Shown here: piece by piece, positions 1 to 55,334 of the stretch
Layout of the letters: each line of letters begins with the position of its first letter
Position numbering within the stretch: the first letter of the stretch is position 1
Source: Physcia stellaris
Lineage: Eukaryota; Ascomycota; Lecanoromycetes; Caliciales; Physciaceae
Reading direction: 5' to 3'
Assembly (NCBI GenBank): GCA_018902385.1
Contig: JABSSW010000053.1
Coordinates: 264,412-328,411 of the forward strand
Length of the DNA: 64,000 nt
The notes under the pieces: model-generated
Databases searched by the model: none
The model's input: the letters and a program-made list of their open reading frames with translations, nothing else
What the model was told of the DNA's origin: nothing
Made by a program: the position numbers and the translations under genes

Positions 1-721
1 CGTGAATGAACAAACATGAAATTGTTTTGAATATAATTTACGATAAATTGATTTTCAAATCGTTCAAATGTAATTATCATGACAATATATTCATCAAAAC
101 AATGCAAATTCGACGTTTGAAAACTTTTGATTCAAATTGTCGATAAAACGTATTTAATTGACGTCGCGATGTTTTTTTATCGAAAACAAATAACGCGAAA
201 CATATTGTTACAATAAAATTTCGATATACGATTTTATCTCGTTCGCAATTTAATTTCTCAACGTTTTATGTACAAAACGAATCAAACGTATTCGATTCAA
301 AATGTTTCAATTATTTCATTCATTCGAAAATCGATTAAAATGACGAATCGTTCGTCGTTGAATAAAATCATTCAAAAATTGATATCACAACGATTACGAA
401 AACGACGTTCGTAAAAAAAAAAAATTTGAAAAAACAACGCAACAAACGTTGAAAAATCAAAAAACAACAATTCGAAATTTTTTTATTTTCGAAATTGAAT
501 TTAAACGATTCGATGAATATCGCGATAATTGATACAATTTTTTTTTATTTATTCGTCGATTTTAAAAATCGAAAACAAAAAATGTAATGTTTTTTTATTA
601 CGATCAATCAAATCGATTTCGCATTCAAAACATTGCGAACAAATTTTGAATTGTTGAAAATTGTCGTCATAATCAAAAAATTCTGAAACACGAACAAATT
701 AAATCGATTTTTAAACGTATA

Positions 722-1464
722 ATGAAAAAAATATCGAAATATTTCAAACATTTGTCAAAAATATTCGATTTTCAAAAAACAATTGAATTGTTGTCGCATC
801 GAATTTACGATCACAAAATCGAATTTTTAAACGATAACAATACATTGTTTCGAAATCGAATATATTTTTTGTTCGAATTCAAATTTCAAAAATTCAAAAA
901 ATATTTGAAAAATAATTTTCAAAAAAATTTTATTGTATTCAATCAAATAACATACGTTTCGTTCGTTTTATTTGCAATTAAATCAAATGATCAATTACGT
1001 TTGTGTGTGAATTATCGACGATTTAATTACATCACGAAACGCAATCGATATTTCATTTTTTTGATCGAAAAAATTTTAATTAAAATGCAAAATTGCAAAT
1101 ATTTGATTAAATTAAATATTATATCGATTTTCAACAAATTTCGAATGAATGAAAAAATGAAAAATTTATCACGTTCGTTATTTTCATGAAATCGTACAAA
1201 TATCGAATATTATTTTTCGAATTGATTAACGAATTCGCGAATTGACAACATTATATAAACGATTTATTGTTCAATTTTTTGAACGATTTTTGTCAAATTT
1301 ATTTAAATGATATTTTTATTTATAACAAATTTAAAAAAAAACACATCGTTCACGTTCGTAAAATGTTGAAAAAATTCAAAAAAATTGAATTACAAATGAA
1401 TATTAAAAAATGCGAAATTTTTAAAAAAAATGACATTTTTGAACGTTATATTATCGATAAATGA
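722..1464 (+). pseudogene. Gypsy reverse transcriptase relic (copy 1)
   Basis: The reading frame from 722 gives the Gypsy RT entry region: YDHKIEF, then LRLCVNYRRFNYIT (the family's LRLCVDYRxLN), NRYFIFLIEKIL (usually NRYPLPLI) and a KLNIISIFNKFR stretch. After stops near 1189 the frame resumes at 1267 with QIYLNDIFIYN, the catalytic YLDD box with its first Asp changed to Asn. The change is GAT to AAT after an A, a target context in this window. Loss of this Asp would abolish polymerase activity even without the stops. Confidence 0.88.
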
Positions 1465-1729
1465 TTTTCGCATGAATTCGAAAAAAATAAAAATTATTGT
1501 CAATTGAAAACGTTTTACAAATTTGAAAAAAATGCAAATTTTCGTGAATTTCGTCAATTTTTACAAACGATTCATTCGTGATTTTTCGAAAAAAATTCGA
1601 ATTTTCATTCGAATGATCAAAAAACTCGTGAATTTCGAATGAATTGTTGAAATCGAAAAAATTTTCAATTTTTTCAAAAAAACGATAATCGAAATTTTCA
1701 TATTACGACATTACGATCGAATCAAACAA

Positions 1730-2140
1730 ATCATTTTGAAAATTGATTTTTTTCATTACGTTAATGCGAAAATATTATTTCAATACAACGACGAAAAAGT
1801 TTTGCATTTCGTTGTTTTTTATAATTGTAACATGATTTCAATCGAATACAATTACGAAATTTATAACAAAAAATTGTTGATCATTATTCGTTGTTTAAAA
1901 CATTGACGTTTTGAATTTGAAAATATTGAAAAATCGATCAAAATTTTCATCGATCACAAAAATTTGAAAATCTTCATGACGTCAAAGAAATTAATTTTTC
2001 GTCAAATTCGTTGAACAAATTTTTTTTCGAAATTCAATATTGTCATTCAATTTCAATTCGAAATTCAAAACGTTAAAACAAATATTTTAATTCGTATATT
2101 TGATTTACGATCAAAAAACGATATTGACGAACGACATCAA
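1730..2140 (+). pseudogene. Gypsy RNase H relic (copy 1)
   Basis: Translation gives LHFVVFYNCNMISIEYNYEIYNKKLL and IDHKNLKIFMTSKKL in pieces. These match the Gypsy RNase H pattern LHPVAFxSxKMxxAExNYEIYDKELLA and TDHKNLxYFxTTKxL. Stops fall at positions normally held by Trp (for example after RCLKH). It lies directly downstream of the RT relic, as in Gypsy pol. Confidence 0.8.
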
Positions 2141-2429
2141 TATCGAAAAAAAATATTGTTTATTTTAAAACGATTCGAAATTCACGCGATGAAAATTGAC
2201 GAATTTATTTACGAACGAGTTTTTGTTGTCAACAAAATTGACGATAATTGCACAATTTATCGTGAAATCATCGAGCAAAATTTCTTTTCAATAAATGAAA
2301 TTGATTTACGAAATTGCATTGAAAAAAATGACGTTTTGTATCGAAAAAATCGATTTTGAATGTTCGTCGATGTTTTTTTATTCGTTGATTTTTTCAAAAA
2401 AAATCATGAATTTTTTGTTTCGAAACATT

Positions 2430-2761
2430 CAAATTTTAATCGCATGAAAAATTTTATACGTCGCGATTTTTATTGATTCAATATGCGCAAAACGATTTGT
2501 CGATACGTACGTAATTGTTATGAATGTTAACGCACGAAAATTTTCAAAAATCGCAAAAACGATTTGTTTATTTTTTTGATCATATTTTTGCAACATTGAA
2601 TCGACATATCAATGAATTTTATTATCGAATTATTCGATGTTCACGATCATAACGTCATATGCACGATAAATGACAAATTTAACAAAAAACGTCATTACGT
2701 GTTTTGTATCGTCGACGACGAAAATATCAATATTGAAATCACGATCAAAATATTCATCAAT
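2430..2761 (+). pseudogene. Gypsy integrase relic, truncated by insertion (copy 1)
   Basis: The frame starting near 2443 reads MKNFIRRDFY-stop-FNMRKTICRY then VRNCYEC, the integrase zinc-binding domain (usually RRDFYWPxM and CxxCQRTK). The Trp after FY is TGA and the Gln after CYEC is TAA. MNFIIELFDVHDH at 2612 starts the catalytic core (family: MDFIxGLP), with Asp changed to Asn. The core stops abruptly at 2761, where the LTR of another element begins. Confidence 0.82.
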
Positions 2762-2979
2762 TGTGACGAACGTACATCGAATTCAACATTTAACAAAATT
2801 AACATCGAATTAACATCGTTATTTTATCACATCGAATGTTAGAATCGAAACTCGTTTTGACGCATTCAAAAAATCAAATTTTCTACATATGTTTTTGCAA
2901 ATTTTGTATTTGTTTTTCATTTCGAAATATTTTCGTGTAATTATGTAATAATATCATATCTTTGCATAGCAATTTCACA
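2762..2979 (+). repeat. LTR (218 bp), third copy of the 19116-24731 element's LTR
   Basis: Begins TGTGACGAACG and ends TTTCACA, giving the standard TG...CA ends. It aligns along its length with the LTRs at 19116-19328 and 24518-24731. The bases after it (TTATATCGAAAT) match those after the left LTR at 19329, so this is a 5' LTR in plus orientation inserted into the Gypsy integrase. Confidence 0.85.
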
Positions 2980-3360
2980 TTATATCGAAATGAAACGTTT
3001 TTTCATGTTCGTTTGCAAATGATACGCGAACATTCAAATAAACAAAATTTTTGTTTCAAAATTCAAAAATTGATAAAGAAACATAATAATTTTCGTATCG
3101 TTTGATCATTCAAAAAAACAACAAAACGTAACAAATTGATTTGAATGCGAAAAAACGAAAATAATAAATTCGTTTGTCGATTCAAAAATATTTTGACAAA
3201 CGAATTTCAACGATAATCGATTCACGAAAATAATTTTTCGAACGTCGATTCAAATTCGAAAAATTATTAATTGTCGAAAAAAATTTTTTTGTTTCAGAAA
3301 ATGACTCGATTACATCATCAAACACATATCAAAATTATTTCGAAAAAATGACATTAAATA
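2980..3360 (+). mobile_element. 5' internal fragment of the LTR element
   Basis: Collinear with 19329-19680, for example the shared TTCGTTTGTCGATT and GACAAACGAATTTCAACG. Similarity fades near 3360. I found no matching 3' LTR downstream, so this looks like a truncated insertion. Confidence 0.7.
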
Positions 3361-4390
3361 CAAAAAAAATCAATTAAAATTAATCAAAACAATTTTTTTA
3401 TATTCGAATTTTTATCATTTCGAACGACATTATATTTCAATCGATTATTTAAGTTTTTTATATTTCGCAATTTTTTTTTTTTTCAATTCATTCGAAAATT
3501 TAATTTTTTATCATCATGATTTTTTCAATTCGTTTGAAAAAACGTCAACGATTCAACGAAATAATTGAAATTGAATATTTTTGAAATTTTAATCAAAAAA
3601 ATCGTTTTGAATATTGAATTTTTTTTCGATATTTATATGATCACAACAATGTTCGATTTTACAAAATCGAATTTCATAATGATTTTGACGTCAATTGACA
3701 TATTCATTTTTCGAAATTAAAAAGAACGATTTTTGAACAATTTGCACGATTCTGAAAAGTTTGAAATTTTTTCGAAAAAATAGAAACAAAAACATCAATA
3801 TCAATTCGAATTTGAAAAATTTCAAAAATACATAAAAACGAAAAAATTTAAAACATTTTTTAAAATTCGATGAAATCAACGTTCAATTTTCGAAACAAAT
3901 CGAAATTCAAATTCATAAATATCGTACTAAAATCAACAAACGATTCGTCGTTTAATTCGTAAAAAAAAAAATTTTACAAAAAAAATTTTTTCGAATGATC
4001 AGATTGTCGACGTTTTCTCAAAAACTAATTATAACGAAAAAATTGATTTTTTCAAAATTCGTTCAAAGAGCAAAAAATTAATTTTTAAATACATCGATTT
4101 TTTTATTTTTTATGAACACAAAAATTCGAACATTTTCGATTACATTCGATATAATATTTGAAAAAATAAATGCGTAAATAAATTGAAAATCAATGCGAAT
4201 TGATATTTTATTAAACAACAACAAATCATTGCAATCGTTCAATGATTAAAAAACAAAATCGTCGAACACGTTCACACTCGACGTAAAATTCAACGTCATT
4301 TTTTTTTCGATTACGAAAAAATTTTCAAATTGTTCGATATCATTTACGTCGATGTAAATTATAATCGCAATATTTGACGTCAATACGACG
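3361..4390. other. AT-rich DNA without recognisable gene
   Basis: Long A and T runs with scattered CG. I see no domain. It probably holds the decayed rest of the LTR element and the 5' end of Gypsy copy 2. Confidence 0.5.
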
Positions 4391-4398
4391 ATTTCAAA

Positions 4399-4850
4399 AT
4401 GAAATTCTCGAATGTATATAGCGAATTTTATTCGAAATTTTTATTATTGATTAATCAATTATTCAACAAATTTGATGACGACAAAATTCATGATTTGAAA
4501 AAAATTCTTCTCGTTAAATTCAAATTGATTATGAATAATCTGAATAATTTCATTTCGTTTGATGTTTTTCATCGAAAAATTCAAACAATCGATAATCGTC
4601 ATCGACGTATTCAAAATGACGACGATAATTTTTTCAAATTTTCGAATCATAAACAGACATTTCGAATTCGTCGAAACGAAAAATATTTTGCGAAATTGAT
4701 CATCAATTACATCAATTCAATCAAAAAAAAAATTTACAAAATTGTCATAATTCGTTTTTTTGTAAAAAAGAAATGTCGTCGTTGTGATAATTTGAAACAT
4801 TGATGAAAAAAATGCAAATCAAACAAGTCGTTATTCGAATGAATAAACGA
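4399..4850 (+). pseudogene. Gypsy gag relic with zinc knuckle
   Basis: Reads YSEFYSKFLLLINQL, HDLKKILLVKFKLIMNN and QTIDNRHRRI, matching the retrotransposon gag pattern (FYxEFxxL...LxxKLPxxLxxAL...VDNxxR). It is followed by CRRC-DNLKH then two TGA codons and KKC. That spacing is C-x2-C-x4-H-x4-C, a CCHC zinc knuckle with two stops inside the last gap. Trp-to-stop (TGG to TGA) is a likely cause of at least one. Confidence 0.75.
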
Positions 4851-6136
4851 TTTGATTAAAAAAAAATATTCAATTTTCAAAATATTGCAACGATTTTCGA
4901 TTATGTTAACAATATATTCATTGTTTTTTCATTTTTCGATAAATCGAAAAATTAATTATCTTTTTCGAAAACGCGAAAAAGATTATCAGAATTTGTTCAC
5001 GAAATTTTCAACATAACATTTTTAACGAATTTCTTTGTAAATTTTTAATTAAAAAAATAAATTTGTTTTTTGACAATCGAAAAAATCATGATTCATGATT
5101 TAATTGATATCGATGTTTTTGAATATGTTTTCATTAATGAAAAAATTGCGAAAAAAATTTGTCATAAATTAAATTAATTTCAATATTTTTATCGAAATTC
5201 AAAAAAAATTTTTAATTTCGAAAAAAAAAAATCAAATTTATTATTCATCAAATATTGTTCAAAATGACGATACAAAATCATTCAAAATTTTTCGTTTTTT
5301 TGTTTATTATCAAAATAAAACAACATTCGTTGATTTTAAATAAATCATGAATAAACAAACATGAAATGATTTTCAACATAATCAATGACGAATGTTATTT
5401 CACATCAAATCATTCAAAATCATGACGAAACATTTTTTTTATCGTTTCGATCGTCGATATTTCAAAAATTATTCAATTCAAACAAACAATCGAATAAAAC
5501 ATTTTATTTATCGTTTTTGAACGATTTTTCACGTCGTTTTTTTTTTTTTTAAAACGTTCAAAAATATCAAATATTTCAAAAACGATCAATTTCGATTTTT
5601 TTCGATCGATTTTTTTCGTTTTATCGTTGAAAATGAATCGAAAAAAACGTCAATCGTTAAAAAAAAAAATTTTTGAATTTCGATTTCAAATATGTCATCG
5701 AAAAATAAACAAAAATTATTTTCGAATAAATTTTTCAAAAAAAAAAAAATGAAAACAATACGCGAAACACAAAAATCGAATTTGATTAACGTTTCGAACA
5801 AAAAAAAATTCGATTTATTCAAAAAATTTACGCGACGTTTTAATCGAAAATTTAAAATTACGATTTTCGAACATGAAAACGACGAACAAAATTTCGATTT
5901 TGATATATCATTAAATGTCGTTTTTATTGACGCGATTGTTTTTCAATCGTTAACGAAATTTAAAAAGAAAAAAAAAAAATCAAAATATTTTTTTTGATCA
6001 ATGAAAAAATTAAACGAAATTATCGACAACGTCAAAAAAATTTAATCAAAATAAAAATTGATTTCGATTTGAATTTCAAAACTTTTTTTTTTTAAAATCA
6101 TGAAAACAATCGTCGAAAAATTAAAACGTAAAATTT

Positions 6137-6949
6137 TTGAATTTTTTAAACGATTCGAAAACGTATTCAATTCGAAAAAATCGACAAATTATTTTTCATA
6201 AATTTTACGATCACAAAATCGAATTGACGAAAAATTCGAATCAATTATTTCGAAATCGAATTTATTTTTTATCGTTTAAAAAATTCGAAATTTTTCAAAA
6301 ATATTTACACGATAATTTTCAAAAAAAATTTATCAATTCAAACAAAACGTTTTATGTTTTTTTCATTTTATTCGTCGTCAAATCGAACGAACAATTTCGT
6401 TTGTGTGTCGATTATCGAAAATTGAACGTCATAATCAAACGTAATAATTATTTTATTTCGTTGATCGAAAAAATTTTCGCAAAAATTATCGATTGAAAAT
6501 TTTTGTTCAAATTGAATATTATATCGATTTTCAATAAATTTCGAATGAATTCAAAACGAAAATTTTATTATTTTTATATGTTCGTTAAACATTTACAAAT
6601 ATCATGTATTGTTTTTGAATTAATCAATGATTCGATCAATTGACAACATTACATGAACGATTTGTTGTTCGAATATATTAATCATTTTTGTCAAATGTAT
6701 TTGAATGATATTTTTCATTTACAACAAAATTCGAAAACAACACGAACGACATTTCATTCAAATATTTCAAAAATTAAAAAAAATCGATTTTTTCAAATCG
6801 ATATCAAAAAATGCGAATTTTTTTCAAACAAAAATTTTTTTTCGACGTCATATTATCAACAAAAAATTTACGTAATGAATTCAAAAAAATACAAAATATT
6901 GTCAATTGAATTCGTTTCAATTTGCATCAAAAAATGCAAACGTTTGTAA
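6137..6949 (+). pseudogene. Gypsy reverse transcriptase relic (copy 2)
   Basis: Contains FYDHKIELTKN, FRLCVDYRKLNVIIKRNNYF and, in the later frame from 6653, FCQMYLNDIF. As in copy 1, the YLDD box has become YLND. Stops lie at 6494-6496 and between the two halves. Aligns with 722-1464. Confidence 0.86.
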
Positions 6950-7089
6950 ATTTTTGCAATTTTTATCGACGTTTCATCAAAATATTTTCGAAATTCGTCA
7001 AATTTTTAATTCGAATAATCAAAAAAAAATTGATTTCGAATGAATCGATTTGATTAATGAAACGTTCGAAATTTTGAAAAAACAAATAA

Positions 7090-8220
7090 TCGAAATTTCA
7101 ATTTTTCGACATTACGATCGCAATCGTAAAATTATTTTGAAAATCGATTTTTCAAATTGATATTTAAATGAAATTTTATTTCAATACGACGACGACGAAA
7201 TTTTTCATTCGATAATTTTTTTCAATAAAAAAATGATTTTTGTCGAATGCAATTACGAAATATATAACAAAAAATTTTTAATCATTATTCGATGTTTAAA
7301 ACATTGAAAATTCGAATTCGAAAATATCGACGAATTCGTCGAAATTTACATCGATCACAAAAATTTAAAAATTTTATAACAAACAAAAATTCATTTTTCG
7401 TCAAATACGTTGAATCGAAATTTTGAAATTGATTTACAATATCAAAATTCAATATCAATTCGAAATCAAAAATTTTAAAACGATGTTTTGATTCGAATGT
7501 TTGAATTTCGTTTCGTCGAAAACGACGAACGAAAATTTTATAAAAAACAAATTTTGAATTTTTTTTTCGATTGCAATTATGTTCGATTGACGTTCAAAAC
7601 GATTTGTACGAATCGTCATGCAAATCAATCGAAAAAACGAAAATTGTATTAATTATCGTCAAATTTTGATCGATAATCAAATCATCAACGAAAAAAATAA
7701 ATTTGCAAAATTGTTTCGAATCGAAATGAAATTCAATTTAAAAACGAAAATTTTTGAATATCAAATCGATTAAATTTTATGATTGAAATAATTCGATGAC
7801 GTGATTTAAATCAATTTTTTTGTGCACATTCGAACATGAATCGTATTGAAAAATTCATTAAACGTTATTATTATTGATTTAATAAAAATTAAAATCAAAC
7901 GTTATATTCGTAATTGTCACAAATGTCAACGATCGAAAAAAACACGATAATCGTTCACGAATTATTAATTTCATTGTCGATTTTTAATCAACGATAAAAT
8001 TGATATATCGATAAATTTCATAATCGAATTATTTGATTTCAAAAAAACAAAATGTCATTTGTATTATTATCGATCGTTTAAACAAAAAAACGTCATTACG
8101 TTTTTGCGAAATCGATGACGATAATTCAAAATAATTCAAATTTGTGTCAAAATATTGTTACATTACGTATTTCGTATTCAAAATTATTTTTTTCATCATT
8201 TCAAATCGAAATGATCAATT
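7090..8220 (+). pseudogene. Gypsy RNase H and integrase relic (copy 2)
   Basis: Scattered frames give CNYEIYNKK and IDHKNLKIL (RNase H), then a KRHYVF stretch near 8085 (integrase core), matching copy 1 in order and spacing. Many stops and frame changes. Confidence 0.7.
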
Positions 8221-8250
8221 CGTAAATCGCGTTTGAAAAAATTTTTGTAA

Positions 8251-9990
8251 ACGATAAAAATCAAATGTAAATTAAATTGTTTTTCAATTTGAAATTGATG
8301 ATCAAATCGAAAAATCAATCAAAATAAATTCGATTACGTTTGTATTGCAAATTATCGTCAAAACGATTGAATTGAATTAAATAAATATCATGAAATTCGT
8401 TGAAAAATGATGTTTCAAAATCAAATTATTTTTTTTTTCAGAATAAAAATATTAATTTTCGAATGATTTTTGAATCAAATTTAAATGATTACGAAATCAC
8501 AAAAAAACGTTTGTTGATTAAACAAAACGAATTCATTGTCAAAAAATGAATCGTATCATCGAATAAATCAAAATCAATATTGTCGATGCAAAACAAAAAA
8601 TGATTGCATTCGAATCAACAAATTTCGTTTGTTCAATAAATTTTGAAATAAAAATTTTTTTGATTAAATCGTCGTTATATAAAAACGATTCGTTAAATTC
8701 AAACAAACTCGATGACAAAAAATTGAATTCATACAAAAAATCAAAAAAAAAATTTCGTTTATGAATTGAAATTGAAAAACGATAAATGCAATAAATTCAT
8801 TCAATGAAATTTTTGATTGTTGAAAAAAAATTTTAAAATTTTGAAAAAACAAATCAACGATTTTCAAAAAATTTTATCGAAATGAAATTTGAATTTTAAA
8901 ACGATAATAATTCGCAATTTCGATATTATTACACATTACAAATCGTTCAAAAAAATTGATTCGATTTGAAAATTACGCGAAATTTAAATGATATTACGTC
9001 GACGACGACGAATTTTGTTCAAACATCGCGATTATTTATTTCATTTTTAATTCAAAAACAACAAAATTTGTCGAAATCGATTAAAATAAATGAATTTTCA
9101 ATCAATGAATCAAAAAATTATTAATCGAAATTTTAAATATTTTTTCAAATTGATTTGAAAAATTTTTTTTTCATTCGTTTCGTGAATTTTGTTTACGAAT
9201 AATTTCGCATGAAAAATTGAATTTGTCAACGATTTTCAAAAAAATTGTCAAATCAAATTTTACATAAACAAATGAATAATAACGTAAAATTTTCAATGAA
9301 ACGAATAAATAAAATTAAAAAAAAAATTCGAACATTTAAATTAAATTCGACAAATTTTTCAATTGTTTATAATGACACGTCGAAAATTTGTAAAATTCGT
9401 TCAAAAATATCGCATTTTTCAAAAAAAAAAATTCATTTTCGTCAATTGTTTTTATACAATCAACGTCAAAAACGTTTGCAAAATCGATTTTGATTTGACA
9501 AAATTTTATCGATCAATTCAATAACGAATTCGTTTCGATTTTCGATATAATTTGATGTTCAAAATTTTCAAAACGTTTATTCAATTCAAATTAACAAATC
9601 GCGTTTTTAATTTTCGAAATTTTTACGAAAATCAAAACGAACATTTTTCGAAAATTTCGAATACATTCACGATTTAATCGACAATTTTCACAATTTTCGC
9701 ATACGCGAAAATTTCAAATTTCGAAAACGTATTTTTAATATTTTTTCACGATCAAATTGTTCAAACAAATCGAAAAACGTCGAATATTTTTTCGAATCGA
9801 TAAATTCGCAAACGAAACGCGATTTCAAAATAATTTTCAACAATGTTTCGATTTTTATTAAATACGTCATTTTGATCGAAATGCGTAAAATATTTGTTCA
9901 CGATAAAAAACGAAAATTTCAATCAATTTTTTCGAAACGTTTGAAAAAAACGAAATTTTGATCGCGTTTGAATTTCAACATTTGACAAAA
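8251..9990. other. AT-rich DNA, unassigned
   Basis: Only short frames (82 aa or less). I recognise no domain on either strand. Base composition and CpT/CpC depletion match the mobile-element relics, so mutated repeat DNA is likely. Confidence 0.5.
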
Positions 9991-12108
9991 TTTTCATCGA
10001 ATTAAATTACGATTTTATACGATAAACGAATGAAATTTCGATCGTAAATTCGTTGTTTTTTCAAATTAATAATTATTGTATTTCATTTTTGACAAAAAAT
10101 TCACATTTTTTCACATTTTCAATTAATGTCATATTTTAATCATTGTTATTTCGAACATGTTCGTTGTTTTTGAACATATTAATAATTTTTTTTTTTTTTC
10201 ATTTTTTTTTTTGTCGTTAATCAAACGAAATTTTATTGATGCAACAACAAATTTTATATTTTTGAAAAACACAAATAAAAATTGAAACGTTTTTTAAATC
10301 GCAAAATTGATCAAAATTGACAAATTCGTCAAATTTAAAACGAAATCGAAATCAAAAATTCATTGATTCGAACGAAAATTATCGACATTAAATTACATTT
10401 CATTTCAAAAAAAATTGCGTTTGTCAAATCGAAATTTGAAATCGAAATCGTTTTATTTTTCACGAATTCGAAAAATAATTTTATGTCACAATAAAAAAAA
10501 AATTTTTTCGAATAACGACATTTTCGAATCAATTTCGTTTGTCGTCGATATCGAATCAAAATTTGATTTCAATAATCGACAAAAATTCAAAATTGAAAAT
10601 GCATCAAAATCAAAAAAAACGAAAAAATGACGAAAATAATGAAAAATCAAACGAAAAAACGATAAAAAAACGTTTAAATAAATATGTTTACAACGACAAA
10701 AATTTTTATGTCAAACGATTTGTTAATCACGAAATTTAAATTCAATCAAAAAATTTTAATGATTGTTTTGCGAACACGACGAATTTCGAACGCAAATTTT
10801 TCGATTTGTTAAATACAAAACAATATTCGAAACAATTCGATTGTATTAAAATATCAAAATTCAATCAAAAAAAAAAAATTATCAAATTAATGTTTGACGA
10901 TGTTCACGATGTTGCGATTCATATTAAATAAACAAAAAAACGAAATCATCAATGCGAAAAATTCGAAATGAAAAAAATTTGTTTGTATTTTATTTGATGA
11001 TTTTTTTCATTCAATTGATATCGTCGAAATTCAAATCGTATTTCGTTTATTTTTTTAATCATGTTTTTCACGTACAAAAACATGATCGCAAATCAAAACG
11101 ATTTCAAAAAAAACGTCAATCGTCGAAAAAAATCGTCATGTAATTCAAAAAAACGAAAATCATTTCATAAAAAAAATTCGATTCAAACAATACAATTGAT
11201 TTTATTAATTCGTTTTATAAATGCAAAATGACGATAAAAATGAATCAATATTGATTATCGTGTTTTCGACAATGATTTTGAATTGAAAAAAAAACATTGA
11301 AAAATTTATCGATAAAAATACAAAAACAAACAATCGAATGTTTTTATAATAAATTTGAAATTTATAATAAAAATGTCGTCAAAATTTCGAAATGAAAACA
11401 AAAATTGATTCGATATTCGATCATCAATATTTATTCAATTGAACGAATCGAAACGTTTCGATTCAAACGCGTCATTAATTTGAAATGAAAAATTTCAAAA
11501 TATGTTTTGAATGCGTCAATCAAAAACGATTACGTTCGCGAATATTTTAAATCGAATTTATCGAAATTTTTTGATAATCACAACAATTTTTTATATGAAT
11601 ATTTATATGCAAATTCATTTGATGTTCAACGAACACGAATATTATATCGAAACGAAATTGAATAAATCGAACATCGTCAAAAATATTTTATTAATGTGTT
11701 CGATTCATAACGATCGTGAATAAAACGCATTTCGTGCGCGATAAAAACGTCGATCATTACGATTTAATTAAAAAAATTCAACAAAATTGTAATTAAAACG
11801 TGAAAATCGCATTTTTGATCGAAATTTCGTTCGACAAACGATTTTTCGATGATTTTGCAATGTTAAAATTATGCAATATGACGCGAAATAAATAAAAAAA
11901 AAATTGACGACATTAAATGAAAATCGTTATTTTCAATTTGACAACGCGTACATGAAATTCGAAAACAAATAAAAAAAAAATTTCGTCGTACAAACAAATT
12001 CGTCAAAAAATCGATGATTTGTTTCAAAATTTCAACGATGTTTTGTCAAAAATGATGATACGATATACATTCGAATCATCGTGATTCGACAAAAATATCA
12101 AAAAATCG

Positions 12109-12324
12109 TTGTCACATTTAAACATCGATGTAAATATGATTTTTTTTTCGAAATTTTCGTCATTGTTGAATAAATTTGATGAAATCATCAAAAATCAAAT
12201 ACAAATCGCAAAATCAACATTTCGAAAATTTGTTGATTCGACAATAATCAACAAAAAACGTATTTTATTCATGACAAAACTATATCGAATAACATTCAAT
12301 TTTTCGTTCATGTTGAAATTTTGA
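12109..12324 (+). pseudogene. Conserved repeat-encoded fragment, unit A
   Basis: 71 codons with INKKRILFMTKLYRITFNFSF. The counterpart at 16388-16603 has INKKRILSMTKLYRITFNLSF. Better protein than DNA conservation suggests a once-coding segment. I do not recognise the family. There are stops on both sides. Confidence 0.5.
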
Positions 12325-13004
12325 AACGATTCGATCAATTTGCAATATCAAATGACATTCGCGAACATGAAAAATTGAATTAAAAATGACGAAATGAATT
12401 CGAAATGTTCGTTATATTTTCACATTCAAAAAAATATTCGTCATCAATTTTAAATTAAAATACATAAATCGAATATTAAATGTTTGAAATGACAAAAAAA
12501 AAAAAAATTATTGATGTTGAATGAATTCGTTGTTGTCGTGTTTTTCGTTATTCAAATACGTTTGTTTTTGATAATCGTATCGATCATATTTATTGTTAAC
12601 ATAATTACAATATGTCAATCAACATTTTCAAAAAAAAATTATTGTTTTTTTTCATTCAAAAATTTCGAATAAAAAGCGAATTTTTATCAAACGCGATTTT
12701 TAACGTTACGTAAATTCACAAAAAATTTCAAAAATATTGAAATTTTCAAAACACGATCGTGATGCATTTTTTTTAACATTTCGTTTGATAAAAACAAATG
12801 TGATTTTGACGCAAACGAACAAATACATATTGATGAAATCACAACATATGTCGTTTGCGAAAAAACAAAAAAAATATCGCGTGTTACGCGTGATTCAAAA
12901 AAAATTTATTAAAATCGTTAAATTCGTTTGTTCGACGATTAAAATCGAAATTGTTATTGTCAACACGTCGAAATTGAAACAGTATTTCGTCACGACAACG
13001 ATGA

Positions 13005-13080
13005 AAACAAAAAATGATGACGAAAAAACAAAAAATGATGATCAAAAAACAAAAAATGATGACGAACAAACAGAAAATAA
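13005..13080 (+). repeat. 18-bp tandem repeat
   Basis: About four units of AAAACAAAAAATGATGA plus one variable base, encoding KTKNDD repeats in the frame from 12737. It lies at the 3' end of unit A. Unit B lacks a comparable array. Confidence 0.75.
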
Positions 13081-13144
13081 CGAAAATAACAATATGATAA
13101 ATGTTTGAAATATTACATTTATTGCATTCAATTTCAATAAAAAC

Positions 13145-13879: not shown

Positions 13880-14100
13880 TTCAATTCAGTATCAAATTAT
13901 CGTTTCGATTTTTGACAATTTTCACATCGAAAACAATGTTTATTTTGTTCAATATCGAATCGTCGTTTCGATTTTCGACAATTTTCACATCGAAAACAAT
14001 ATTTATTCAATTCAATGTCGAATCGTTGTTTCGATTTTCGACAATTTTCATTTTATTCGAATTTTCGACGATTTTTATATCGAAAACAATATTTTTGATT
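13880..14100 (+). repeat. ~63-66 bp tandem repeat
   Basis: About three units containing ATCGTTTCGATTTTTGACAA, TTTTCACATCGAAAACAA and a T-rich TTCAATATCG part, with a shortened fourth. One frame reads VSIFDNFHIENN in each unit. It lies between units A and B. Confidence 0.75.
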
Positions 14101-14359
14101 TTTTTTCGCGATGAAACAAATGAAATTAATATCAACGTAAAAAACATATCGATCGTCAAATTAACAATTAATACGTCAAATGTGATTTTCAACAATACGT
14201 TTGTTTTTATTCGATACATTTTTTTGATCAAATTGTGTCAAATATTTGTTCAACGAAAATTGAACAAAAATTGTCAATTATTTTTTTTTGTCGCGTTTGA
14301 ATTTTTTGTCGCGTTTGAATTTCAACATTCAATTATTATCGATTCGAAATCACGAAAAA

Positions 14360-17270
14360 ATACACAATAAATTTTTTACGTTCATCGCATTTGATTCATC
14401 GTTTTTTCAAATTAATATTTTTTGTATTTCGTTTTTTTTCAATTCACATTTATTCACATAATCAATTAATTTCGATCATCGATATTTCGAACATGTTCGT
14501 TGTTTTTAAAAATTAATAACGATTTATTTTTTTTTTATTCGTTTTTTCAACGTCGTTCATCGAGCGAAAATTTGTCGAAATAACAACAAATTTTTATCAA
14601 TAAAAAAATAAAAAATAAAAATAAAAAATCAAAAATTGCAAAAATTGATCAAAATTTGCGTTCGTCAAAATCAAAATCAAATCGATATTGTATTATTATC
14701 AACGACGATAACGATGACGATTCGACGCAAATCATTTCGATTGTTGTTTTTCAAAATAAAAATAATGATACATTCGATTTCAAATTTTTTCAACATGTCG
14801 ATTGAAATTCAAAACGCGTTTGCATGAATGACAATCGACGAAACGAAATCACAATTCGAAAATGAAAAAAAAAATGATACGATCGATGAAAACAATGACG
14901 ACGCGTTAATGAATCGATATGTTTACAACGACAAACAACATATATACACGATTTGTTGATCACGAAATTTAAATTTGATCAAAATGAATTGATAACGAAT
15001 TGTGAACATGACGAATTGTGAAAATCGATTGTTAATTTCGTCAAATATTTGTCGAAAAACAATCGAAATAATTTATGCATCGAAATATTTGAATTCAACG
15101 AAAAATTAAAACAATATCAATGTTTGACAATGTTTACAATGCGATTATTCATGATAAATAAAAAAAAAACGATGTTATCAATGCAAAAAAATCGAATATG
15201 AACAAAATTTGTTTTTATTTTATTTGACGATTTTTTTCATTCAATTAACATTATTTGAATTCAAATTGTCGAACAATTTGTCATGTTTTTTGATTACAAA
15301 AATATGATCGCAAACTATACAAAAATGCAAAAAAATGAAATGATTCATCGACAAATCGTCGTTATCGTGATAAAAATGACGAAAATCATCGTGCAATAAA
15401 AAAAAATTATAACACGTTTGTATGTGTGATTTCAAATATTTTTTTTAAAAATACGATTTCGTCGATAAATTCATATCGATCATAATATTTTCGCGATGAC
15501 ATTAAATTAAAAAAAAAACATTGAACAATTCATCGAAAAAAACGAAAACGACAAACGTTCGAATTTTTACATAATCGTTCACAAAATTTACGACGAAAAT
15601 TCAAACAAAATGTCGAATTGAAAAAAATCATTGATTGATATTCGAACACAAATATTTAACAAATTGAAAACAAATAAAAAATTCGATTCAAATGCGTCGT
15701 TAATATGAAACGAAAAATTCAACAATTATGTTTTAAAAACGCAAAACAAAAAAAAATATTTTCGCGATCGTTTTCAAACAAAATCATTCAAATTCATGAT
15801 TATCATTACAAAATTATCGTATAACGAACATGTGCAAATTCATTTGTTGTTTAAAAAATACGAATGATATTCAAATTTGAAACAATATAAATCGAATCAA
15901 AATAAAAATATTTTTTGAATGTGTTCGACGATATCGATTGTCGACAAAACGCATTTCGTGCGACAAAAACATGTCAATCAATTCGATATAATAAATCGAA
16001 TTCAACAAAATTGTAATCACATCGTCAAAATGAAAAATTCACATTTTCAATTATTTTCGAAACGTCGTTTTAGTCGTCGTTCAAACGATAAACAAAATTT
16101 ATCATTTTTTCGCATGATAAATCATTTTCACAAAATAAACATCAAAACGTATGTATTAAATCAAATTAAAAAAATTTGAAATGTTCGTCAATTATGAAAA
16201 TTGTTATAATCAAATTCGACAACGTTTATATCAACATCGAAAAACAAATCAAAAAAAATTTTCGTCGTACAAACACAATCGTCAATTGATCGATAATTTG
16301 CTCGAAAATTTCAACGATATTTTATCAAAAATTATGATTCGACATATTTTCGAATCATTATGATTTGACAAACACATCAAACAATTTTTGTCACATACGA
16401 ACGTGAATGTGAATGTGAAATTTTCATCGAAATTTTCGTCATTGTTAAATCAATTTAGTAAAATTATCAAACATCAATTACAAATCGTCGAGTTAACGTT
16501 TTTAAAATTTGCGAATCAATCAATAATCAATAAAAAACGTATTCTGTCAATGACGAAACTATATCGAATAACATTCAATCTTTCATTCATATTGAAATTT
16601 TGAAACAATTCGATCAATATTCAATATCAGATGACATTTATCGACATGAAAAAATGAATCAAAAATAACAAAATGAATTCAAACTGTTCATTGAATTTTC
16701 GTTTTGAAATGATTTTAATTATCAATTTTAAATCAAATTACATCGATCGCGATATGAATGTTTGAAACGAAAAACAAAATAACAAAATATTTATGTGAAT
16801 AACGTTTGTTATCGTTGCGCGCTTTGTCGCATTGATACGTTTATTGTTAATAACGAAATCAATTGTGTATATTATTAACATAATTATAATATATCAATTG
16901 ACATATCATTGAGAAAATCGTCGTATTTTTTCATTTTGAAATTTCAAACAAAAAACGAGTTACGATTAAACGTGATTTTCAATGTTATGTAAATTCATTC
17001 GATTTTACAAAATTGTTCAAGTATTTTCAACACGATCACGATATTATTTCATCAATTTTTTTTTTGAATATTGATATGATATTAACACAATTCGACAAAT
17101 GTATTTTCATGATGTCACAACATATGTCGTTTGCGAAAACGCAAAAAAAATCGCGTATTGCGCGTGACACAATAACAATTTGTTGAATTCGTCAAATTTG
17201 TTTGCAATTAATTAAAAATTGAAAACATTGTTATTGATACAAATAAACGATATCATTATTTTTTCATGAC
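14360..17270 (+). repeat. Unknown interspersed repeat, unit B
   Basis: Second copy of unit A in the same orientation, with the same order of blocks. AG/CT words are slightly more frequent than in unit A. Contains the 16388-16603 fragment paired with 12109-12324. Confidence 0.7.
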
Positions 17271-18399: not shown

Positions 18400-19115
18400 G
18401 CAATTTCTGTTGTATTGTTTGACGATTAGTTATTATTGTTCGACGTTTTCTGACATGTTGTAATTGATATTAAATGTAACGAAAATTGTTAATTCGATTT
18501 TCATAATCTATTGAAAAAATCATGAATGATTATCATTTTATTGTTTTGAATTTCGTTTTTCTTGTAACATACATGCAAATGAAAGCACAAAAAATGTGCG
18601 AATGTTAAAACATTAATTTCAACAAAAACGCATTAATATTTTTTTCGTCAAATTATATTAATTGAATTTTGATTGCAACATTTGCACAACACATTTGCGA
18701 AAATTGTATTTCAACAATTGTTCAAAAACAATTGCAAAAAAAACAAACTGAATAAAATTTCGAATTTTTTTGTTATTGATGACGCATTGAACAACAAATT
18801 GTAACGAAAATAAAAAAGAAAACTTTCGAAAATTTTGAAAAAAAGACTGAATTACTCGTCACAAGCATACAAAATTACATATTTTAAAAAATATTCGCAT
18901 TATCTGAATTATAATGCTTATGAAAATATTTGAATTTCTCGAAATAAATGAAAAAACGATTGAGTGATTGAACGACACGTAATAAAACAATTTTATTTTT
19001 CTTTTTGTACGATTATTCGCAACAACGATATCGAAAAAATGCGTATACATATAAAAGAAAAAATAATGTATTTCTGTACGAAGAAAAAATTGTTGAAACA
19101 ATTTTTTGAATATTA
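18400..19115 (+). mobile_element. Element E copy 3 (mutated), left part
   Basis: Aligns with the fresh copy at 54100-54590. Near-identical anchors are GAACAACAA, GACTGAATTACTCG, CAACGATATCGAAA and ATGCGTATACATATA. Differences are almost all transitions in CpT/CpC or their complements. The copy is split at 19115 by the LTR element and resumes at 24732/24737. The 5' end could not be located. Confidence 0.85.
19111..19115 (+). other. Target-site duplication, left (TATTA)
   Basis: Five bases before the left LTR. The right copy at 24732-24736 is CATTA and the unoccupied site in the fresh E copy is CACTA, so all three differ only by C-to-T. Confidence 0.75.
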
Positions 19116-19328
19116 TGTGACGAACGTGTATCGATTTCAACATTTGAAATTAACATTTGCAATCATTAAAATTAACATTTTTATTTTATCACATCGAATG
19201 ACAAAATCGAAATTCGTTTATAATCAAATTTTTTACATATGTTTTGTCAAATTTTATGTATTTGTTTTTCATTTCGATATTTTCGTGTAATTATGTAATA
19301 ATACTATATTTTTGCATAGTATTTTACA
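19116..19328 (+). repeat. Left LTR
   Basis: Starts TGTGACGAACG and ends TTTTACA. Followed by TTATATCGAAAT, as after the LTR at 2762-2979. Confidence 0.85.
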
Positions 19329-20728
19329 TTATATCGAAATCAATCACGTTATGTTCGTTATAAAATACGCGAGCATCAAATAAGCAAAATTTTTTGTCTT
19401 AAATTTCAAAAATTGATAATGAAGCATAATAGATTCGTATCGCTTGATCATTCAAAAAAAACAACAAAGCGTTATAAATTGATTGTGAATGCGAAAAAAC
19501 GAAACATAATAAATTCGTTTGTCGATTTAATTAATTATCTTGACAAACGAATTTCAACGATAATCGATGTTACGAAAACAATTTTTTTTCGAACGTTGAT
19601 TCAAATTCGTTTCATTTCGACTGACAAAATGTTTTTACGATGATTCGATTAAGTCATCAAATCAAATTTAAATTATCAAGAAAACATCATATCAAAATAT
19701 TCGAACAATAATCAAAGCAAAAATTCAATTATCAAATCAGATTTTTGATCATCAATATTTCGAATCATTTATTTTTTTCGAGAATTTTTCGAAAATTTAT
19801 CTATTTTCTTAACAAAACGATCGTTTTTTTATTTTTATTCGATAATTTTAATATCGAATCAGAAAGTCGTTCAATATTTTATTTGAAAATCAATCAATAT
19901 TTGATAATATAATCATTTTCTTTGTTCGAAAAACAATTCGAAAACGTGTCGATTGATTTCAATAAAACGATTTTTCTTTTCAATTTTTGCGATAAATTCA
20001 ATATCAGTTTTTCGGAATTTCATATCGAAAATTATTATATCAGAAATTTTCGATCGAAATTTTATTTCTCGATCGAATTTCGAATCATTTATTTGTTTCG
20101 AGAATTTTTCAGAATTTTTATCAAATCTTTAACAAATCGATTTTTTTTTTCAATGATAACATCAATATTCGAGTCAGAAAATCAGTCAATTTTTCGACAG
20201 AATTTTCAATATTGACAATTTCATATCAATATCTGAATCATTTTTGATTCTTGAAAATTTTCAAAAATTACATTTGTCGATTCTGCAAATCAGTTTCGAT
20301 TTTTCAACATCTGTGATGAAATTGATAATATTTTTATTATTTTCGTTCAGTATTTCGATAAGAAATCAGTATTGAAATTATTCGTTTTTTCGAAATCATT
20401 GCGAGATCATATTTGTTTCATTAACAAAAAATTTTGTTTTTTTCGTTTCGACGTTGAATTCAATATCTTTTTATCAGAAACGACAAAAATCTTTTAGCGA
20501 AATTATACATCAGCATTCGATATTGAATTTATTCATTATGTTTGAAAATTTTTCGAAATGATATTCAATTATCTATCAAAACAACGTTGTTTTTTCAATT
20601 CGAAATTGAATTTGATATTTAATCAAGAAATTTTCGTTTTATTCAAATATTCGAATCATTTGTCTTGTTTGAGAATTAATTCGAATTTGCATTCGTTTCA
20701 TTGTTAAAATTAACTTTTTTCTTTTGTT

Positions 20729-21637
20729 TTGACGATGACTTTCGTATTCAAAAATCTAAACATTTTCAATTCGAAATATTCTTATTCTGATTCAGAAAAT
20801 GAAATATTTTGCGAAATCGCAAGTTTTTTTCAATATTTTCAACAATGTTTGCATTTATTTTGCGAATCAAATCTGCTGAATAAAATGAAAACAATTTTTT
20901 ATGACTTTGTCAACACATGATTCGAAAATCAATCGATTTTTACGTTTTTGCGAAAATTCGATATAATTTTAACGAACGCATTTTTTTTATTTGTTTTCAA
21001 ACAACAAAAATTGAAAATCACGTTTGAAATTTCGAAAATCAAACGAATCAAATTCAAAAAAATTTCGAAAACAAAACAGATTGTCAAATCAACATCAACG
21101 TTTCAAAATATTGAAATTTTCGATTCATCATTAACATTTGACAGATTCGAATTCGATCTGTATAGCGAAATCGCGATTTTTTTGCAATATTTTCAACAAT
21201 GTCAACATTTGTATCGCAAATCAAATTTGTTGAATTTGTTGTCGAAATGTTTATGTGATCATGCGTTTGATTAATTCAAAATTCAATTTGAATTCATTTC
21301 GTTGAAACGTTTCAATAAAACTTTAACGAAAACATTTTCGAAAGCGTTTGTACGACGTGTTTTATCAAATAATTCGAATTTTCAATTAAATACACTCGAT
21401 GTTATATCAAAATCAACAGAAAAATCAACATCGTGTAAACATTGCGACGAGATTTTCAATTTCAAGAAAATGTTTCGTCAGCACAAACGCGAACATCATG
21501 TTCGAAAATCTGTCGAAAACTTGAATTTTCGAATTTTCGCATCAGAATTTACATGTAATATCAAGAAAAAGTCGACATTTGTTTGTTTGTTCGTTTCGTT
21601 TAATTTCTTTGCAACATCACGAAATCAGAAATTTTGA
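20729..21637 (+). pseudogene. gag-like protein with duplicated domain and C2H2 finger
   Basis: Two tandem modules: FFQYFQQCLHLFCESNLLNK (near 20826) and FLQYFQQCQHLYRKSNLLNL (near 21180). Each ends where a gag AFDWF-like motif is expected, but Trp is replaced by a stop (VNT-TGA-F and AFD-TAA-F). A finger C-KHC-x12-H-x3-H follows at about 21433-21495 (CKHCDEIFNFKKMFRQHKREHH). From memory this is a recurrent ascomycete retroelement protein. Broken in several frames. Confidence 0.65.
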
Positions 21638-21799: not shown

Positions 21800-23200
21800 T
21801 ACATTCAGAAATTTTATCTGATTGCGAATGATTTGAATCGCATGTTTGTTAAAAAGTTTAAATCATTTGATTTGCGACAACATCATAATCGTCATTTTTT
21901 TCAACAGAATTTCGATGTTCGTCAATTTCGTTCGATCAAATTTGATTTCATTATCGAAAATCTGTTCGAAATGTTCGATAAAAAATTCAGAAAAAAGAAT
22001 CTGTTTCAAAATCAAAACAATTTATCTTTTCAAACATTTTCAAGTCAAAAACAAATCATCGTTTATTTCAAATTTACAGTCAATCAGAAATCGTCGATTA
22101 ATCAAAACTCAAAAAATTCAAAATCGAAAAGTTTGAATCAACACATGCGTGCGAAATAAATTCGTATTGTTTTCAACAAAAACTTGTTTGAAAAATCGAT
22201 TTATTTACAATATAAATCGACAAATGTTTTTTGCGTCAAAAATAAATCTTTGCAAATTTTAGACTTTTCGAAATCAAAATTTCAAAAATTTCGTATTGTT
22301 GCAGAAATTTCTTTTTTAATTTTCGTTTTTTTTCATTTTTTTTCAATTTTTTTTCTTGTTTTCGCATTCGTTTCGATTATTTTAATTGCAAAAATGAATT
22401 GCATTAACGTTTACGAACAAGTCGTTTCGATCATTGATCGTGTCATTCAATAAAAATAATGAATTTGTCGTTTCGAAACGAAACTGAAAAAAAACGAAAA
22501 ATAAATTGTTCGAATATTCAGTCACGAAACATCAAAAGTTCGAATTTTCGATTTTTTACACTCAAAATCACATACAAAATCATAAAGAAATTAACAATCG
22601 TTTGTTGATTTGTTTCGTTTGTTTCGTTTAATTTTTTTGCAATATCAAAATTGATATTTTGTTTTGCATCGATATTTGAATCAAAATTATCAAAATGTTC
22701 GCATTTTTCTATTGCGACATTCAATATCACATCAAAATCGATGAAGAAATTATCAATCATTTGTTCATTTATATTTTCGATTTCATTTTTTCGAACATTT
22801 GTATCAAGATTTTATTACATTATCGATGATTTGATTCGCATTTTCGTGAAAAATCTAAATCATTTGATTTACGACAACATCAAAAATTTCGTTTTTTCGC
22901 AAAACGACGATATTCGATCATTTGTCACATATCAATTTTGCATTATCGTTTATTTTTTGTTTGCAATCAATCAAAAACATCGATTAAAAAAATCGATTCA
23001 TTTATTATACAAATTGTCAAACATTTTTTACGTCAATTCAGAAACATTTGCAAATTTTAAATATTGCAAAAATGAAATTTTCGAAATTTCATATGTTCGC
23101 GAAAGCTTTTCGCGTCAATTTTGTTTTTTTTCGTTTTTTTTGATTTTTCTCGTTGTTGTCGCATTTATTTTGATCAATTTGATTTTAATAATGATTTAAA
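21800..23200 (+). pseudogene. Second, tandemly duplicated degraded ORF region of the LTR element
   Basis: The segment near 21830 (NRMFVKKFKSFDLR) and that near 22836 (IRIFVKNLNHLIYD) are diverged copies of one domain. Each is followed by IHLLYK/IYLQYK-(S/T)N(I/V)F and a hydrophobic C-terminal stretch (FVFFHFFSIFF, FCFFSFFLIFL) that could be a membrane anchor. Function unknown. Confidence 0.5.
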
Positions 23201-24517: not shown

Positions 24518-24731
24518 TGTGACGAACGTGCATCGATTTTAATATCTGAAATTAACATTTGCAATCATTAAAATTAACATTTTTATTTTATCACATGAAA
24601 TGACAAAGTCGAAATTCGTTTATAATCAATTTTTTTACATATGTTTTGTCAGATTTTCATGTATTTGTTTTTCATTTCGATATTTTCGTGTAATTATGTA
24701 ATAATATTATATTTCTGCATAGCATTTCACA
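24518..24731 (+). repeat. Right LTR
   Basis: Matches the left LTR over its full length (TGTGACGAACGTG...GCATAGCATTTCACA). Differences are mostly transitions. The 5-bp duplication CATTA follows at 24732-24736. Confidence 0.87.
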
Positions 24732-24736
24732 CATTA

Positions 24737-25358
24737 TTTGTACGACGAAATTCAAAGACGTTTTTTTTCTTATTATTGAAATTCGAACAATTGATTTATC
24801 AATAATAACGTTGTGAAAATGCAATCAAATAATCGATTTTTTTCTGATTCGAAATCAATCGATTCAAATTGAAATCGATATCACGTGTTTTATCGTTTTA
24901 TCGCATTAAATTCAATTAGAAATCATGATATGTTTCGAAAATATGATCAAATGATTGCAATTTTCGCAATTGAAAATTTATATGTTTGACATTTTTTTTT
25001 TTTTCGAATTTTCAATTGCGAATTGCGACATTTTTTTTCGATTTGATTAATTCAAATTCTGTTTAACGTTTCATTATCGAATTTATTGCGTCATACAGTT
25101 GTTTCGCATTTTGTATTTCAATCAAAAATCATTTATGATTTTCATTTATCTAGTCATAATTGTAAAGCAAAATGAGCGTATTTCAACGTCGCAAAAATAA
25201 CAAAAATCGATTTATTATCGCAATAATTTTGAAGTTTCGAAAATTGCGTCGTTGTCAAATTTGTGTTCGTTTCGAATTTTGCAATCTTATCAGATCTGAT
25301 TTTAATTCTAAAAATTTTCGACAAAGTTTTTTTTAAAAAAACTTTCGAATTTATTTGT
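24737..25358 (+). mobile_element. Element E copy 3 (mutated), right part
   Basis: Continues the alignment with 54590-55075: TATTTGTACG...GAATTCAAAGACG, CGATATCACGTG, and the 120-bp 3' block with GAGCG(T/C)AT and TTATCGCAATA. It ends in the E terminus. The fresh terminus CCGGGCCTACTTGT (minus strand of 47281-47294) appears here as TCGAATTTATTTGT, with every CC, CT and GG changed and the CG kept. Confidence 0.85.
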
Positions 25359-25371
25359 AATTATTATTAAG

Positions 25372-26041
25372 ACAAACAAATTCGAAATTTCTTTAAAAAA
25401 AATTCTTTTCGAAACGATTTCAAGATTAGAATTGCATCTGATAAAATTGCGAAATAATTCGACATTTCGTCATTGCTTTGCGATTTCACAGATTTCGCAT
25501 CTTAATAACATTTGCATTCAATAAATAAAATTTACAATGAAAAATTCATATTGAAACACGAAATGAATTCTATTCAAATAATTAAAAATATCGAAAATCG
25601 ATCGAATGCGCATGAAATTATGTTCGAAATCGCATTGAAACGTTGCAAACATTGTGAAAAATTGAATTTTTCGAAACGAAACGACGAGTTTTTGCAACGA
25701 TGAAATTTTGAAAATTTCAAAACTATTGCGATAATGAATCGATTTTGATAATTGTTGAAACGTTGAAATGTGTTCATTCTGTTTTACAACTTTGATTAAA
25801 CAATTTGATATCATATGAAATTGTTGATTGCGATGCAACATATGCAACAATTGCACGAGCGCAAAAATTTTGATGATTGATAAAATGAAATATAATCGAT
25901 TTTCTTTTTGAAAACGTGAATTAAATATTGATTGAATTTATCGACTTTAAGCAATACGAACGCAAAATTGATCAGAATTTTTCTCGATCGATCATTCGCG
26001 TCAAGCGATTTTACTGAACATTTTTTTATAAATTGTGTTTT
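25372..26041 (-). mobile_element. Element E copy 4, internally deleted and mutated
   Basis: A ~670-bp minus-oriented E. The left end resembles ACAAGTAGGCCCGG after C-to-T change, then sequence collinear with 47310-47720 (CACGAA(A/G)TGA, AATATCGAAAATCGA, CTATTGCGATAATGAA). The right end is TTTTTTTATAAATTGTGTTTT, the mutated form of the fresh right end at 49744-49763. The coding part is missing, so it is a MITE-like deletion derivative. It faces copy 3 across 13 bp. Confidence 0.8.
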
Positions 26042-26880
26042 ATTTCGTTTTCATCGATGTTCGAAACTTCATTCGAATAGAATTTCATTTCGTGTCATAT
26101 GTTCATGCGTTAGTTTTTTCATTGTCTGATTGCTGTAAATGAACATCAATCGAAATTCGCTAAAATTAATATCAATTTGCGAAATTTCATTTCGAGCAAT
26201 TAAGCGCAATTCATTGTTGCGTTTATGAATTCGATTTTGATGAACATAAATTTCGTTTCGAAAAAAATGATGTTTAGTATCGAATCGATCATTTATAATC
26301 AAAAATTTCAACGATGTCATGATTGATTTCGAAAATGATATATACGATTTTGAAACACGATGAAATCAAATCACAACGAAGTCTTGATTGTTTTCGCAAA
26401 AAAATCAAAAATTCGCAATTTTTTACATTATGTTGAATCATCAGATGAATTCGAATTTGATTGAAAAAAAATCAATGATCACAAAAATCAAATATTATTC
26501 GAATTTAGATTTTCAACATTCGTTCTTTTAAAAAGAAATTTATTTTTTTTCGAATCAAATTATGTTTGTATTTCATTATTTTGCATGAAGAGATTGATTG
26601 ATTACAAAGAACACTTGTTCACGCATTTGAAAATGATGAATTTGTTGACTTGATATACGACTATCGATTTTGTTGACAGAGCTATTTCACAATTATTGTT
26701 TAAATGATTGAGTTGATTTCGGTGTCATAATACTTATGCACGGCGTGATGTAAATTTTGAATTACACAGAATGTCGACAGCAGGCGGGAATCATACCACT
26801 GGACTTATCATGTGGTTTCACAATTTTCAAGAAAGTTCATAAGCTATGTTCGTGATATGAATTTAGAGACTGATCTTATC
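26042..26880. other. Transition from AT-rich block to gene island
   Basis: CpT/CpC depletion fades between about 26.55 and 26.75 kb and normal composition begins. No gene seen. Confidence 0.6.
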
Positions 26881-53250: not shown

Positions 53251-53253
53251 TTG

Positions 53254-55304: not shown

Positions 55305-55334
55305 TCTTTTTAATTTCAAAAAAAAATTCTCAAA

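Follow-up and report, generated by a model that had tools for sequence, protein, structure and literature searches.

What kind of process strips DNA of nearly every cytosine that precedes a pyrimidine (CpY) and leaves most CpA and CpG sites in place? This question is raised by the terminal 64 kb of contig C53 (JABSSW010000053.1, positions 264,412 to 328,411) of the lichen fungus Physcia stellaris, hereafter the window, which holds an AT-rich block with the relic of a retroelement, an island of normal composition and a copy of a multicopy helicase gene. From comparisons of mutated with less mutated copies, it is highly probable that repeats of P. stellaris undergo a process of the repeat-induced point mutation (RIP) type, which changes C to T on both strands, at CpC first and CpT next, weakly at CpA and hardly at all at CpG. 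The genome sequence analysed comprises 43.97 Mb in 147 contigs. The published assembly, built from Nanopore and Illumina reads, has 46.57 Mb in 184 scaffolds (PMC7513301), so the analysed sequence falls short of the whole published assembly.

Context and direction of the mutations

The original prediction, made from composition alone, was that C had changed to T mainly before a pyrimidine. Its tally of the first 480 bases could be reproduced (CT 3, AG 0, CC 0, GG 0, CG 35, CA 32, TG 22). Over positions 1-17,000, both strands together, CC is absent (observed/expected 0.00) and CT occurs 66 times (0.04), beside 1904 CA (1.25) and 1986 CG (4.31); the survival of CA and abundance of CG that had been described thus hold, and CpA is not depleted like CpC and CpT. 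The island at 27-38 kb has ordinary ratios (CC 0.91, CT 1.05, CA 1.15, CG 0.88). The longest stretch of the window free of CC and GG is 1-20,013, and between 8,708 and 12,279 CC, GG, CT and AG are all missing. Chance was ruled out as the cause of the CC/GG absence by 200 base shuffles of 1-17,000, each of which contained at least 408 CC plus GG, against none in the actual sequence.

For the direction of change we took ancestral letters from L048 on contig C12, a reverse-transcriptase region of 50% GC that is an unmutated copy of the relic's retroelement. Between this copy and the relic at 569-1,864, 1,296 aligned bases hold 363 C-to-T-type changes and seven other substitutions. All CC sites and nearly all CT sites are changed, few CA and very few CG sites (Table 1), which bears out the prediction. 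When 15 context rules were applied in silico to L048, the CpY rule brought it closest to the relic (identity 0.9637, from 0.7145 unconverted), followed by CpT alone (0.8904); CpA alone gave 0.6373. The base 5' of the C is close to irrelevant at CC and CT sites (ACC 34/34, CCC 26/26, GCC 40/40, TCC 49/49). CpA is a weak target, changed at 16 of 53 TCA and 15 of 111 other NCA sites, and TCG was changed at 3 of 65. Unmutated copies of the retroelement region lie on C12 (L048) and on C5, so that some insertions have escaped the process, at least so far.

Intermediate stages and features of the window

A half-mutated copy of the retroelement region, L049, differs from the ancestral letters by 63 C-to-T changes and three others; as in the relic, C:G to T:A changes are in large excess, as expected of RIP in the broad sense. 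Its counts and those of L050 (Table 1) indicate that CpC is converted before CpT, and that CpA is hardly touched at that stage.

Within the window we compared 11 pairs of copies, reading the direction of change from unequal GC content. Three pairs set a 40%-GC copy against one of 23-27% GC, and two join satellite-like repeats at intermediate stages. The polarised counts from the relic, L049 and these pairs rule out an artefact of base composition.

Table 1. Sites changed, by context (changed/total)
Comparison; CC; CT; CA; CG
Relic 569-1,864 against unmutated L048; 149/149; 177/180; 31/164; 6/155
Half-mutated copy L049; 38/46; 22/50; 1/52; 2/48
Half-mutated copy L050; 39/43; 23/51; 1/52; 2/48
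18,722-19,119 against 54,184-54,583; 26/29; 39/51; 3/40; 2/40
24,731-25,228 against 54,574-55,071; 29/33; 29/40; 10/66; 4/44
Third pair, 40% against 23-27% GC; 18/28; 35/51; 9/53; 5/34
Satellite-like, 40,762-41,939 against 50,880-52,079; 39/81; 23/96; 10/99; 16/154
Second satellite-like pair; 25/34; 15/52; 8/63; 9/62
L021 (contig C30) against 22,514-22,987; single CC left; 24/30; 11/62; 8/50

The features of the window are as follows.

1-20,013, no strand: AT-rich block free of CC and GG, saturated CpY relic DNA (dinucleotide counts)
569-1,864, plus strand: retroelement reverse-transcriptase relic, polarised by the unmutated 50%-GC copy L048
17,001-26,600, no strand: less complete part of the block
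18,722-19,119, no strand: mutated partner of 54,184-54,583 (pair comparison)
24,731-25,228, no strand: mutated partner of 54,574-55,071 (pair comparison)
27,001-38,000, no strand: island of normal composition with an amino-acid permease fragment and uncharacterised frames
38,500-43,400, no strand: second AT-rich block, saturated at 38.5-40 kb and mixed at 40-43.4 kb
40,762-41,939, no strand: more mutated partner of 50,880-52,079 (pair comparison)
54,184-55,071, no strand: less mutated 40%-GC reference for the partners at 18,722 and 24,731
55,335-61,633, plus strand: OrsD-DEAD-Helicase_C gene copy, four overlapping frames, multicopy family

The pattern had been assigned to 1-26,600, and said to hold across 1-17 kb and 38.5-43 kb. 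It is all but complete in 1-17 kb, less so in 17-26.6 kb (one CC, CT 0.28) and only mixed in 38.5-43.4 kb (CC 0.23, CT 0.32), because 40-43 kb contains partly mutated satellite-like repeats. The boundary at 38.5 kb spans about 100 bases and is sharp, while that at 26.6-26.9 kb is more gradual.

A tandem repeat of 183-184 bases, at varied stages of CpY change, forms arrays at 40,860-42,450, 43,485-43,857, 44,469-47,066, 49,870-50,634 and 51,131-52,057, and related copies occur on other contigs, many of them on C91. The frames at 48,535-49,479 (minus) and 53,999-54,397 (plus) are related, lack a Pfam match and apparently belong to one gene family; mutated copies of stretches beside them are found at 18.7 and 24.7 kb. 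Two long open frames of the island, 29,649-30,818 and 34,970-36,673 (both minus), had no Pfam match at 0.01. A 22-base repeat array (ATTCATGCACGAATAAAT-like) occupies 52,171-52,904. An array of 149-161-base units with normal composition, at 62,964-64,000, reaches the contig end, where no TTAGGG telomere was found.

Repeated and single-copy DNA

The change is present in repeats and absent from the single-copy stretch tested, one stretch of each kind having been compared together with the composition of 20 loci. A 1.7-kb piece of the island (34,970-36,673) matches a single place in the genome, and a 1.5-kb piece of the AT block (20,001-21,500) matches at least 126 places, a lower bound as 40 of 91 candidates were scored. 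The retroelement region has at least 40 matches (40 of 190 candidates scored), from 100% down to 72% identity, two of them at 96-100%. Nineteen of 20 sampled 10-kb loci are ordinary (CC 0.91-1.11), so that CC and CT are retained there as in the single-copy stretch. The odd locus, L021, represents an earlier stage (CC 0.09, CT 0.44, CA 1.22, CG 2.70).

Consequences for coding sequences and for RIP detection

With the standard code, CpY change can create stop codons only as TGA, from the tryptophan codon TGG. Matches to reverse transcriptase (RVT_1; 150 scored of 527 candidates) contained 250 TGA, 33 TAA and three TAG stops, and ten of them were stop-free. In a simulation of saturation that took in 2,644 codons of four host frames, CpY change produced 49 TGA and no other stop, and CpA change 92 TAG and 55 TAA; missense affected 41.8% of codons under CpY and 20.7% under CpA. 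As only TGA stops arise, inactivation proceeds mostly by missense.

None of the 30 one-kb windows passed the two classical RIP indices (TpA/ApT >= 0.89; (CpA+TpG)/(ApC+GpT) <= 1.03). Block 1-17,000 scores 0.43 and 1.42, and thus lies farther from both thresholds than the island (0.66 and 1.34). RIP is detected almost everywhere with such CpA-based indices, which a CpC-first mutator would escape; lichen fungi and others may therefore be misjudged as RIP-free.

The OrsD-helicase family

The frames at 55,335-61,633 (842, 299, 589 and 388 residues) encode OrsD, DEAD and Helicase_C domains, the last two as in a RecQ-like helicase. Database searches returned no close relatives; the best named match was a RecQ family helicase, with 24% identity over 32%. 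Frame 1 has 44 genome matches and frame 2 has 23, some of them split or in the wrong frame, and 13 other places were used for comparison. Of 14 places, ten are no more than 15 kb from a contig end, although several of the contigs are merely 11-46 kb long; copies on C12 lie 36-85 kb in, and that on C41 118 kb in. Among contigs bearing helicase copies, C34 alone has TTAGGG repeats. An array of an 8-base unit (TTGTTTTA) lies directly upstream of the window's copy (55,170-55,305), and another at 53,235-53,417.

The composition of this copy resembles that of mutated DNA (29% GC, CC 0.09, CG 3.4), and yet frames of the family stay open for up to 1,763 residues. Tryptophan codons are missing from the four frames and from the longest open stretches of copies L028, L030 and L031, whereas relatives carry them (33 in the 1,642 residues of P0122, eight in P0121, six in P0123). 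The target sites that are left seem to be ones at which change would alter the protein: at CC-type sites 0 of 25 are synonymous, where the four host frames have 200 of 936 (p=0.005), and at CT-type sites 25 of 203, the other 178 being nonsynonymous, where the host frames have 405 of 1,015 (p=1.6e-15). CG sites show no shortage of synonymous cases (p=0.81). In frames 2 and 3, the helicase part to which motif mapping was applied, nine of the 11 remaining CC/GG sites fall inside AGTGAGK, ALPLV, NEGID and QIGRAGR, which we take to be helicase motifs; frames 1 and 4 hold 14 sites. The helicase part may thus keep CpC sites chiefly at glycines and prolines that the motifs require.

These motifs are nevertheless hit. 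At six motif glycines, 27 codons are changed across the 13 other copies. In 19 cases, spread over nine copies, the change is GGA to GAA or GGT to GAT, the glycine to glutamate or aspartate step predicted from CpC; L026, L032 and L036 have none. Among seven open copies, 20 of 21 pairs have a ratio of nonsynonymous to synonymous rates (dN/dS) of 0.11-0.64, and the remaining pair, with ten differences, reaches 1.24. Mutator pressure biases these values.

We read this as a family that lives under the mutator, some copies being kept and others silenced by missense; judging from its codon patterns, it appears to be adapted to it. We lean towards the wider proposal that in this lichen fungus, and perhaps a wider lineage, a RIP of order CpC>CpT, sparing in stops and invisible to the standard indices, drove helicases at contig ends to shed tryptophan and nearly all CC and GG, which would be kept mainly in catalytic motifs and are still hit there. 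Alternatively, the gene might be AT-rich by acquisition or inheritance, with odd codon use, or the copies might be relics kept open by the absence of tryptophan. CpY change leaves frames open in general, as the 49 stops in 2,644 codons illustrate, several open copies bear motif changes, and there is no close relative for comparison. A relic should, however, have TGA at its old tryptophan positions, and the frames have neither codon. The concentration of residual CC/GG in motifs and the mostly low dN/dS, biased as it is, also speak against the alternative, and we consider it possible but distinctly less plausible than adaptation.

Methyltransferase genes and possible mechanisms

A search with PF00145 found three cytosine methyltransferase genes, the DIM-2-like L002, with DUF7893 and a weak BAH domain alongside the methylase domain, and the RID-like L003 and L001. 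The relatives listed for the DIM-2-like protein all come from lichens. The two RID-like genes both have the SPPCQ motif of the RID/Masc1 type, and are 40% identical over 174 residues. L003 and most of the listed relatives read EQT at a second motif, where L001 (1501-2472) has EET; all 120 relatives listed are nearer to L003. One might guess that EET is tied to the CpC preference. Botrytis and Sclerotinia, which have CpT signatures, each have two RID-like genes (PMC4352252).

A RIP-type process would read the 3' neighbour of the cytosine as RIP does, with its preference reversed, and could run nearly to completion. Repetition probably triggers the CpY change in the course of the sexual cycle, with a cytosine methyltransferase like RID/Masc1 or DIM-2 as the likely enzyme. 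Slow decay would give identical products: the CpC and CpT sites of repeats might carry methyl groups, placed there for example by the DIM-2-like enzyme whose gene is present, and 5-methylcytosine deaminate passively over a long time. Such decay is hard to reconcile with 363 changes against seven in 1,296 bases and the loss of every CpC beside ordinary mutation, and already the partly mutated copy stands at 63 against three; we regard it as improbable. Even less can be said for classical CpA RIP with a CpT side target and a CpA signal masked by base composition. Publications often name CpT as a second target (PMC4352252, PMC10998396), and 31 of 164 CpA sites are changed in the saturated relic. 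Polarised counts are independent of composition, however, and in L049 they give CpA 1/52 against CpC 38/46; stops, moreover, are TGA rather than TAG or TAA. CpA-first RIP is thus refuted for the elements examined. A free cytidine deaminase or ultraviolet damage, to which sun-exposed lichens might be prone, also yields C-to-T changes, and CC and CT are dipyrimidine sites, but these agents depend on the 5' base or target TC, the wrong side for the relic, where ACC and GCC are fully changed and TCG and TCA mostly spared, nor would such damage spare the single-copy island, so that we reject this signature as most improbable.

Several points weigh against a CpC-first RIP as we propose it. The saturated polarised result comes from a single relic (569-1,864), and the half-mutated copies L049 and L050, with a single difference in 369 bases, were counted as one event. 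The remaining pairs among the 11 are uninformative, being near-identical, similar in GC or saturated in both copies; in two saturated pairs, 22-29% of the CA and CG sites differ as well, through either slow loss there or older divergence of the copies. Two host frames of the four have no Pfam match and are no more than open frames. Helicase CA sites, too, are low in synonymous cases (186/708 against 376/1,081, p=0.00014), and the fully open copy L028 itself bears motif changes, so an open frame is no proof of activity. The reading covered about 300 kb of 44 Mb, overlaps counted, and the repeat trigger, its timing and the acting enzyme are what we infer from the sequence.

Comparison with known systems

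Telomere-linked RecQ-type helicases of fungi are multicopy genes, and the P. stellaris helicases resemble them in being multicopy, with many near contig ends. They differ in having an OrsD N-terminal domain, no tryptophan and almost no CC or GG. Under a mutator that disables genes by missense instead of stops, the target sites left in the P. stellaris family may reveal what selection protects.

Endocarpon pusillum, another lichen fungus, has the classical signature (1.47 and 0.70; PMC3897900), and lichen fungi thus differ among themselves. The conclusion of a survey covering 1,239 fungi is that RIP-like defences share a CpA preference, and no Lecanoromycetes stand among its 130 species with strong recent signatures, as far as the accessible part goes (PMC12543289).

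CpT bias had been thought to be on record for single elements only, which proved an underestimate. Published accounts make CpT a predominant or secondary context in Botrytis, Sclerotinia and Magnaporthe (PMC4352252) and a dominant one in further species (PMC7882544, PMC10998396); PMC4133081 likewise describes it as predominant, joint or dominant. It is also reported for Neurospora Tad1 (PMC2621366), and elsewhere just behind CpA (PMC4350166). P. stellaris is like Botrytis cinerea, Sclerotinia sclerotiorum, Magnaporthe oryzae and Anisogramma anomala, where CpT is a predominant or joint target and each species has one or two RID-like genes; unlike P. stellaris, all four also have CpA as a target. 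Its signature is not a joint CpT and CpA one, since CpC leads and CpA stands at 2% in the partly mutated copy. A term search found no mention of CpC in the accessible text of PMC4352252 or PMC10998396, nor did we find CpC as leading target in the literature searched, where most subscription papers fell outside reach.

The repeat mutation of Microbotryum violaceum likewise has a context other than CpA, but there it is biased to TpCpG (PMC4352252), with a 5' T and at CpG, the most spared site in P. stellaris. RIP of Trichoderma reesei, demonstrated in crosses, also changes C to T in duplicated DNA; there CpA and CpG lead, CpT follows and CpC is last (PMC5496416), whereas CpC comes first here. 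Neurospora crassa RIP shares with the P. stellaris process C-to-T change on both strands, repeats as targets, a 3' context, and relatives of RID and DIM-2. Its order is CpA>CpT>CpG>CpC (PMC5496416), against CpC>CpT>>CpA>CpG in P. stellaris, where both the relic and the partly mutated copy lack a Neurospora-type CpA preference. Repeat recognition and the base read by the enzyme, coupled in Neurospora, thus come apart here, and the paralogous RID genes are candidates for testing how the context changed.

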